NCBI RefSeq assembly: GCF_016900375.1
Contig: NZ_JACJKB010000002.1
Location: 124,001 to 188,000 of the forward strand
DNA from: Collinsella tanakaei
GTDB taxonomy: Bacteria > Actinomycetota > Coriobacteriia > Coriobacteriales > Coriobacteriaceae
Length of the DNA stretch: 64,000 bases
Direction of reading: 5' to 3'
In this document: positions 28,908 to 52,670 of the stretch, piece by piece
How the letters are laid out: every line of letters starts with the position of its first letter
Position numbering within the stretch: the first letter of the stretch is position 1
Position numbers and translations under genes: made by a program
Notes under the pieces: model-generated
The model's database searches: none
Seen by the model: the letters and a program-made list of their open reading frames with translations, nothing else
Told to the model about the DNA's origin: nothing

Positions 28908-28982
28908 GCGGGCATCGCCAAGTGGTAAGGCATCAGCTTCCCAAGCTGACACTCGCGGGTTCGAGTCCCGTTGCCCGCTCCA
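28908..28982 (+). tRNA. tRNA-Gly (anticodon CCC)
   Basis: Acceptor GCGGGCA pairs with TGCCCGC; the anticodon stem TCAGC/GCTGA encloses the loop TTCCCAA, giving CCC; the T arm is CGGGTTCGAGTCCCG. The CCA end is encoded in the DNA (28980-28982). Confidence 0.96.
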
Positions 28983-29021: not shown

Positions 29022-29035
29022 TGGGCACCCTGCAC

Positions 29036-29160
29036 GGACTCGAACCGCAAGGTCGCGAGACTGTGCAAACGCGTGAGCGTTTGCCAGTGAGCGTGCGAGG
29101 GCGCAAAGCGCCTGAAGCTGCGGACGGCGGAGCCGGACGCGAGTCCCGTTGCCCGATCCA
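29036..29160 (+). repeat. tRNA-tail element, Gly copy
   Basis: A 125-base structured element. It opens GGACTCGAACCGCAAGG, contains the hairpin GCAAACGC...GCGTTTGC and a GGCGC...GCGCC hairpin, and ends in a copy of the last 21 bases of tRNA-Gly (29140-29160 against 28962-28982, 20 of 21 identical, CCA included). Its opening GGACTCG can pair with its own closing CGAGTCC. The Lys copy at 47567-47698 is closely similar. Confidence 0.8.
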
Positions 29161-47434: not shown

Positions 47435-47507
47435 GGGCCGTTAGCTCAGCTGGCAGAGCAGGGGACTTTTAATCCCAAGGTCTAGGGTTCGAACCCCTAA
47501 CGGCCCA
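47435..47507 (+). tRNA. tRNA-Lys (anticodon TTT)
   Basis: Acceptor GGGCCGT pairs with ACGGCCC; discriminator A; D arm GCTC...GAGC; anticodon loop CTTTTAA gives TTT; T arm GGGTTCGAACCC. CCA is not encoded (CCC follows). TACAAT at 47420-47425 is too close to the gene for a standard -10 of a long leader but fits a start just before the tRNA. Confidence 0.96.
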
Positions 47508-47520
47508 CCCTTGATTGAAG

Positions 47521-47546
47521 AGGACCTCGCGGGAGCGGGGTCCTTT
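47521..47546 (+). terminator. Hairpin after tRNA-Lys
   Basis: AGGACC-CGC (47521-47530) pairs with GCG-GGTCCT (47535-47544), followed by TTTC. Confidence 0.75.
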
Positions 47547-47566
47547 CACGTTCGTGGCCCCGGCGG

Positions 47567-47698
47567 GGGTTCGAACCGCAAGGTCGCGAAGCTGAGCAAA
47601 CGCGCGAGCGTTTGCCAGAGAGCGTGCGAGGGCGGCGCAGCCGCCCGGAGCTGCGGACGCCGCAGGCGGACGCGAACCCCTAACGGCCCACCCTTGAT
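47567..47698 (+). repeat. tRNA-tail element, Lys copy
   Basis: Opens GGGTTCGAACCGCAAGG, contains GCAAACGC...GCGTTTGC and GGGCGGC...GCCGCCC hairpins and a GACGCCGCAGGCGGA hairpin, and closes with a perfect 26-base copy of the tRNA-Lys 3' end plus 8 flanking bases (47673-47698 equals 47490-47515, 183 bases apart). The opening GGGGTTCG pairs with the closing CGAACCCC. Confidence 0.85.
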
Positions 47699-52267: not shown

Positions 52268-52300
52268 GGTCCTGCGGGTTCGAATCCCTCTCTCGGTTGG
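52268..52300 (-). repeat. tRNA-tail element, Ser series, truncated second start
   Basis: On the minus strand it reads GAGAGGGATTCGAACCCGCAGG, in the first 22 bases matching the opening of the full Ser element exactly 180 bases away; only the opening is present. Confidence 0.7.
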
Positions 52301-52333
52301 GCAATCGACCTGTTCGATATGCCGTCGCTGAGT

Positions 52334-52477
52334 GGCGGAGAGAGAGGGATGTCGGCCGCCGCTTCGCGCCGCCCTCCCGCTGCGGGCGGCTGCGCCGCCC
52401 TTGCGACTCATGCTGGCAAAGACGCTCACGCGCTTTGCGCAGCATGAGGCCCTGCGGGTTCGAATCCCTCTCGCGCG
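52334..52477 (-). repeat. tRNA-tail element, Ser copy
   Basis: On the minus strand, downstream of tRNA-Ser. It opens GAGGGATTCGAACCCGCAGG, has GCAAAGCGC...GCGTCTTTGC and GGGCGGC...GCCGCCC hairpins, and closes with a 17-base exact copy of the tRNA-Ser end (52334-52350 equals 52530-52546). Confidence 0.78.
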
Positions 52478-52531
52478 TGGTCGAGAAGGGCTCCGGGCCT
52501 CAAACTATTTCATTGTTGGGGATTTAACGGG

Positions 52532-52618
52532 CGGAGAGAGAGGGATTCGAACCCTCGGAACGCTCGCGCGCTCAACGGTTTTCAAGACCGCCGCATTCAA
52601 CCGCTCTGCCATCTCTCC
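52532..52618 (-). tRNA. tRNA-Ser (anticodon TGA)
   Basis: Minus-strand 87-nt tRNA with a long variable arm. Acceptor GGAGAGA pairs with TCTCTCC, discriminator G; anticodon loop CTTGAAA gives TGA; T arm AGGGTTCGAATCCCT. CCA is not encoded. Confidence 0.95.
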
Positions 52619-52670
52619 GTAATGTGTAATGATAGCATCGAATCCAGACGAGTAGGGGAAGGGGAGGCGC

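Follow-up and report, generated by a model that had tools for sequence, protein, structure and literature searches.

Why the 3' end of a tRNA gene should be repeated a short distance downstream of the gene itself, at the close of a strongly structured element, is the question raised by a tRNA-Lys locus of Collinsella tanakaei. The locus lies in the window, which is the whole stretch of 64,000 nt that was analysed, and a preliminary description had noticed there, after tRNA-Lys and its terminator, an element of 130 nt ending in a copy of the tRNA 3' end. The copy is exact. The 26 bases at 47673-47698 equal those at 47490-47515, running from T-loop nt 56 to 6 nt past the ACC with an offset of 183 nt. 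The complementarity noted between the first bases of the element and its closing copy is also present, GGGGTTCG (47566-47573) pairing with CGAACCCC (47673-47680) and enclosing three strong hairpins and a small stem. All three tRNA genes of the window (Lys, Gly and Ser) carry such an element, as had been stated. The parts of the three units are as follows.

47435..47509, + strand: tRNA-Lys(TTT), host gene of the unit, with tRNA nt 59 at 47493 (ARAGORN and Rfam)
47522..47546, + strand: intrinsic terminator of tRNA-Lys, GGACCTCGCGGGAGCGGGGTCC TTT (sequence)
47566..47577, + strand: inverted copy of the tRNA-Lys T arm, GGGGTTCGAACC, the first 8 nt of which are the 5' strand of base stem P1 (sequence and family-wide analysis)
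47573..47675, + strand: body of the tRNA-Lys unit with stems P2, P3, P4 and P5, ending ...GGACGCGA where tRNA nt 58 would be (match to covariance model R1 at G000:C2:171573-171652; covariation)
47673..47698, + strand: direct copy of the 3' part of tRNA-Lys, matching from nt 56 and followed by 6 nt of trailer; it contains the 3' strand of P1 (identity to 47490-47515; junction analysis)
28908..28982, + strand: tRNA-Gly(CCC), with a unit downstream (tRNA finding)
29033..29160, + strand: unit behind tRNA-Gly, consisting of inverted T arm 29033-29046, body, and tail copy from nt 59 at 29143-29160
52529..52619, - strand: tRNA-Ser(TGA), with a unit downstream (tRNA finding)
52333..52472, - strand: unit behind tRNA-Ser, consisting of inverted T arm 52472-52456, body, and tail copy 52350-52333
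52276..52294, - strand: second inverted T arm of tRNA-Ser (sequence; similar stubs at other loci), which, judged by its sequence, is the stub of a decayed distal unit

The units share one architecture. The T arm of the tRNA comes first, copied in inverted orientation; a multi-hairpin body of ~105 nt follows; and last stands a direct tRNA copy that starts at nt 59 and takes in trailer and terminator. Two points go beyond the preliminary description: the 5' end repeats the T arm of the local tRNA in inverted form, and at other loci the terminator is part of the tail copy. The same arrangement can be read as a repeat, present 1-3 times, of tRNA nt 59 to 3' end, trailer and terminator, short spacer, inverted T arm and ~105-nt body. 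Units are ~180 bp long (range 175-259 bp, median period 186) and gene-free, and most of those in Coriobacteriaceae include a terminator. In P1, the inverted T arm pairs with the T-stem strand that the tail copy supplies, and this stem closes a multi-branched fold in the tRNA sense around P2-P5. At tRNA nt 59, it contains T-A, A-T, C-G or G-C depending on the tRNA, so all four pair types occur. One unit behind tRNA-Val (L091, genome G035) has a palindromic insert of ~70 nt between terminator and inverted T arm, which indicates that units are able to carry additional sequence.

The fold is conserved while its sequence changes. Model R1 describes the body core (82 positions, 26 pairs) and was built from nine copies of the C. 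tanakaei genome, among which 12 of the 26 pairs covary. The nine-sequence alignment was not fitted to the model, and its covariation score is 0.303, against 0.123 when shuffled. With 103 distinct copies, in an alignment that was fitted to R1, double compensatory changes are found in 21 of the 26 pairs, 94% of the cells are paired, and the score is 0.301 compared with 0.095 for shuffled and at most 0.063 for slid partners. The exchange of GCC/GGC for GGC/GCC between the Lys and Gly copies, from which selection on structure had been argued, is thus real and one of many.

Folding favours the tRNA-sense strand. Relative to dinucleotide shuffles, the + strand of the tRNA-Lys element gives z scores of -3.7 as RNA and -3.3 as DNA, and the - strand folds less well (-2.6 and -2.7). 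The 25 G-T versus 2 A-C cells in P3 likewise favour the sense strand as the folded form. G-U pairs account for 1.4% of paired cells in the units, whereas tRNAs of the same genome have 6.7% in their acceptor and T stems. This scarcity follows in part from GC content and is counted in phylogenetically related sequences; a DNA strand, or correction guided by the hairpins, would explain it no less well than RNA. GNA triloops are enriched yet mixed with GNRA-type tetraloops, and as a signature of DNA they are not decisive.

Occupation of tRNA genes is selective. Of 50 retrieved tRNA genes of the 2.48-Mb C. tanakaei genome, ~10 carry complete units and 4-5 more carry fragments, most of the others having neither. 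In the 500 nt read behind each gene, complete units follow Ala-CGC (two plus a stub), Gly-CCC, Lys-TTT, Lys-CTT, Ser-CGA, Ser-TGA, Thr-CGT and Leu-CAG; fragments follow Ala-TGC, Thr-TGT, Ser-GCT and Leu-TAA (at a contig end). A search with the nine-copy model found 13 copies in the genome, adding Val-TAC (two units spanning a contig break) and tmRNA. The tRNA-Ser(GCT) unit (L044) appears to have been broken within P3 by an insertion-sequence-like element. Palindromic repeats of another kind (CATGACAGTTAGGACGGTTCCCAGTGTCATG; AAAGTTTGGGACCTGTCCCCAAACTTT) are abundant in this genome and are placed immediately 3' of tRNA terminators, for example behind tRNA-Asn, tRNA-Lys(CTT) and tRNA-Ala(GGC) (L010, L013, L027). 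The genome also has four Y1-type transposase genes, one of which adjoins tRNA-Ala(GGC).

Beyond C. tanakaei, model R1 found copies in 35 of 37 same-genus genomes of a first sample (C. tanakaei included) and none in 23 genomes of other genera of the order. Across the class, 46 of 248 Coriobacteriia genomes were positive, all from one family except G135, which belongs to another family of the same order. A scan of 84,980 species, made with an exact pattern and so blind to distant relatives, gave matches in Collinsella, Enorma, 'Limicola' and unnamed Coriobacteriaceae only. A same-strand tRNA or tmRNA gene lies upstream of 155 of 165 copies, at 58-436 nt (median 63); the 10 exceptions lie at contig ends, or next to a tmRNA or tRNA remnant overlooked by the tRNA finder. 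Some of the 165 loci were retrieved via tRNA-Lys and tRNA-Phe queries, whereas the hits of C. tanakaei, G008, G013, G016, G018 and G023 were picked by model score alone. The occupied hosts comprise 24 kinds of tRNA/tmRNA genes. The preliminary description had named two outcomes that would speak against it, no excess behind tRNAs and no covariation among further copies; what was found is linkage of 155/165 copies to tRNA or tmRNA genes and covariation in 21/26 pairs.

No Rfam family matches the Coriobacteriaceae units, and database comparison gave no match that would indicate a phage or plasmid origin. The single IMG/VR match is a host flank beside a serine-integrase prophage at tRNA-Lys. That prophage, from a Collinsella-like host (L260; IMGVR_UViG_2921084881_000004), encodes a large serine integrase and abuts the tRNA-Lys 3' end, and its integrase gene extends beyond the tRNA tail copy. 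The open literature on Collinsella, Coriobacteriia and tRNA repeats contained nothing relevant, and subscription papers may hold earlier descriptions.

The borders of the units are precise. In 103 of 107 analysable units, the tail copy starts at tRNA nt 55-59. Starts earlier than 59 reflect chance matches of the body's last bases (...CGA, ...GGA, ...TGA), and in the body class ending GAC the match begins exactly at nt 59. The long direct repeats (~54-90 bp where intact) also begin at nt 59. Comparison of relatives at tRNA-Phe defines the other border. Empty sites there read tail, terminator and CTTTTAT followed directly by TGAGGGCTC; occupied sites read tail, terminator and CTTTTAT, then the unit body, then nt 56/59, tail, terminator and CTTTTAT, and again TGAGGGCTC, so that the distal tail and terminator adjoin the original flank. 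The direct repeat therefore begins in the T loop and ends with the terminator, and the upstream tRNA is left intact.

Copy number varies at a given site. In a C. aerofaciens-like clade, tRNA-Lys loci with zero, one and two units exist side by side, zero-unit loci can retain a stub whose last part is the inverted T arm, and identical tandem copies occur among units. Because recombination between the direct repeats recreates the same sequence, an empty site may have lost its unit or never have had one, and present-day insertion at new tRNA genes is not proven by such sites. In the annotation of DNA behind tRNA genes, the units produce false partial tRNAs and false attachment sites. At one locus (G012:C32:810-11044), an integrative element of ~10 kb with a phage-type tyrosine integrase lies between tRNA-Lys(TTT) and its unit, and has a 44-nt tRNA copy at its far end.

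The ends of a unit stay with the locus, whereas bodies are exchanged. The base of the inverted arm that corresponds to nt 59 agrees with the unit's own tRNA in 100% of 133 copies, compared with 40% for other tRNA kinds. Bodies behind Thr-CGT and Lys-TTT in G013 are 97% identical, those behind Ala-TGC and Arg-CCT in G016 are 95% identical, and in both pairs the terminator, spacer and inverted arm each belong to their own locus. Among near-identical bodies, spacers agree at 0.81 for the same tRNA and 0.65 for different tRNAs, the background for unrelated pairs being 0.58. Since bodies are common to different tRNA loci and ends are locus-matched, the body must move or be converted between loci; this sharing could be ordinary gene conversion.

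A search for an enzyme that tracks the unit, by comparing tyrosine recombinases, reverse transcriptases and Y1 transposases in carriers and non-carriers, found none. Two carriers, G013 (with 16 copies) and G005, encode just two tyrosine recombinases, which we take to be XerC and XerD. This speaks against a dedicated tyrosine integrase, and the earlier suggestion that the elements are remnants of repeated integration by related enzymes is not supported. C. tanakaei has a third Xer-like tyrosine recombinase of 375 aa (L247:907-2034; G000:C2:260257-261291), which adjoins a sirtuin gene and occurs in just a few relatives; it was rejected as a candidate, being found in few carriers and also in the non-carrier G034. 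Reverse transcriptases (PF00078) are absent from most of the tested carriers, including G000 (C. tanakaei), G008, G012, G016, G018 and G023. Y1/RAYT transposases are encoded by many carriers and also by non-carriers, and RAYT-type genes are absent from five carriers (G005, G027, G035, G219 and G247), so this candidate was discarded as well.

The reading that best accommodates these observations, with a probability of about 0.6, is that the unit is a non-coding, non-autonomous, recombining tRNA tail, the working form of which is the folded sense strand; the enzyme and the mechanism of first insertion are putative. Of the meanings offered at the outset, it retains that of a small non-autonomous element tied to tRNA ends, which is the best fit to the tRNA/tmRNA linkage, the empty and filled sites and the shared bodies. 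First insertion at a new tRNA gene would target the T loop between nt 58 and 59 and duplicate tail and terminator. Copy number would shift when the direct repeats on either side of the hairpin body recombine or replication slips between them, and the tRNA would survive each change because every unit restores its 3' half and terminator. Between loci, bodies would be swapped through conversion or through recombination of folded single strands, with the two T-loop-like borders as the points of exchange. The reacting form might be folded single-stranded DNA on which functions of the host act, with no dedicated integrase involved. The single-strand recombination of integron-like and CTX-like systems may serve as an analogy.

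The strong covariation of the sense strand, and the strictly same-sense placement behind tRNAs, would equally suit a structured RNA of benefit to the host, such as an RtT-type sRNA, a tRNA decoy, or a read-through or processing signal, in which transcripts that extend beyond the terminator would fold, with the T arm of the tRNA, or its copy, as partner of the inverted one. RtT of E. coli is indeed annotated as an sRNA, one that is released from the tyrT transcript by processing. Such a role nevertheless appears rather unlikely: the units sit past intrinsic terminators, they are patchy among sister species and few of their pairs are G-U, all of which is mildly against it, and their bodies swap between loci. 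Of 5426 E. coli genomes, 4687 have RtT at 1 to 14 places each, and 739 gave no match at the limit of the search. RNA could instead have been the template. Position 58 is a methylated A in many tRNAs, and a pre-tRNA copied from the terminator to the T loop, with a stop at 58, a switch to a body RNA and joining of the product behind the terminator, would generate a duplication with just the two borders observed, tRNA nt 59 and, in the clean tRNA-Phe insertions, the end of the terminator T-run. This retroposition-like origin is improbable given that most tested carriers lack a reverse transcriptase and the E. coli tyrT repeat lacks an intrinsic terminator, and it leaves the tRNA-matched inverted arm unexplained.

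Site-specific integration at the T loop through a dedicated tyrosine integrase, in the manner of integron cassettes or genomic islands, is the least probable of the alternatives, very much so in view of the two recombinases of G013 and G005 and of the failure of C. tanakaei's extra Xer-like protein to co-occur with the units. The layout does mirror an attC site, with inverted box, hairpins and direct box; attC sites react as folded single strands (PMC4792948), and the T loop is a known crossover site, for example for phage Ms6 (PMC1762012). The overlap sequence of the T loop is, however, absent from the body side of the junction. It is also doubtful that the units are purely passive, that is, ancient sequences immobile today and amplified or homogenised by RecA-type recombination between repeats. 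Direct repeats flanking strong hairpins, identical tandem copies, and spacers and ends inherited with the locus are all as passive amplification would have them. What it does not explain is that 24 kinds of tRNA/tmRNA genes have an inverted arm matched to each and a tail copy beginning at nt 59, and there are related units in another family (G135).

Compared with known systems, the recombining tRNA-tail unit stands apart from several that it resembles in part. Like REP/REPIN elements with their RAYT, it is a small non-autonomous hairpin element, unlike them it is strictly linked to tRNA genes. With integron cassettes it shares the logic of a folded single strand, tandem units, and an inverted and a direct box, P1 being formed from inverted T arm and tail; it differs in targeting the tRNA T loop and in having neither cargo gene nor IntI-like integrase, no tyrosine integrase of the IntI type being present in the genomes tested. 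Genomic islands in tRNA genes (Islander type, PMC4383910) also restore the target tRNA and have the displaced 3' fragment at the far end, whereas the Coriobacteriaceae units are of ~180 bp, lack integrase and cargo, and possess an inverted T arm and a covarying body. In place of the terminal inverted repeats and short target-site duplication of a MITE, long direct repeats are found.

The closest likeness is to the 178-bp repeats behind E. coli tRNA-Tyr, the RtT RNA of Rfam (RF00391, rttR). At tyrT, there are three copies with a period of 178, a tail copy reading ...GAGTA/ATCCTTCCCCCACCACCA, an inverted T stem GGGGAAGGAT ~60 nt past the tRNA, and hairpins whose loops are GCA and GAA. The tyrT/tyrV repeats and the Coriobacteriaceae units agree in period (178 versus a median of 186), in tandem arrays of a unit of about 178 bp, in a direct tRNA tail from nt 58/59, in an inverted T arm ~60 nt behind the tRNA, in a P1 closing to the tail, and in GNA-loop hairpins. 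They differ in sequence, with no detectable homology and no covariance-model match in either direction (best 8 bits); in the loci searched, the RF00391 gathering cut-off of 45 bits was not reached and no RtT match appeared at E up to 5 or 10. The E. coli repeat has no intrinsic terminator, whereas most Coriobacteriaceae units have one, and it is annotated only as an RNA processed from tyrT, compared with 24 tRNA/tmRNA kinds in Coriobacteriaceae.

Through a weaker RtT match, further units came to light at lysV of E. coli and Klebsiella and at tRNA-Lys of Providencia; NCBI labels those at the E. coli tRNA-Lys loci (L380, L386-L389) 'RtT sRNA processed from tyrT transcript'. In the E. coli lysV unit, the inverted T arm reads GATTCGAACCTGC, the tail copy starts at nt 59 and the terminator is duplicated; some strains lack the unit, and in these the terminator runs directly into the flank (L386 versus L387 and L389). 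Near-identical units occur three times behind another E. coli tRNA-Lys (L388). These tRNA-Lys units share with those of Coriobacteriaceae the inverted T arm, a body, the nt-59 tail, the duplicated terminator and the coexistence of filled and empty strains, but they occupy few tRNA kinds and their body is unrelated by model.

By architecture, then, the Coriobacteriaceae units are the counterpart of the E. coli tyrT/RtT repeats. We would tentatively extend this to a general class, RtT included, of reprogrammable, gene-less mobile units that may colonise tRNA/tmRNA genes as a folded single strand, with a closing stem copied from the T arm of the target and without a dedicated recombinase. So far the E. 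coli repeats have passed for a local oddity. Their equivalent in a distant phylum, a family with matched ends at 24 kinds of tRNA/tmRNA genes, makes of this oddity a general phenomenon with a testable mechanism, and the polymorphic tyrT and lysV loci of E. coli bring the question within reach of a laboratory strain. The tyrT kind of repeat is greatly enlarged by the Coriobacteriaceae units, and its origin and mobility become testable.
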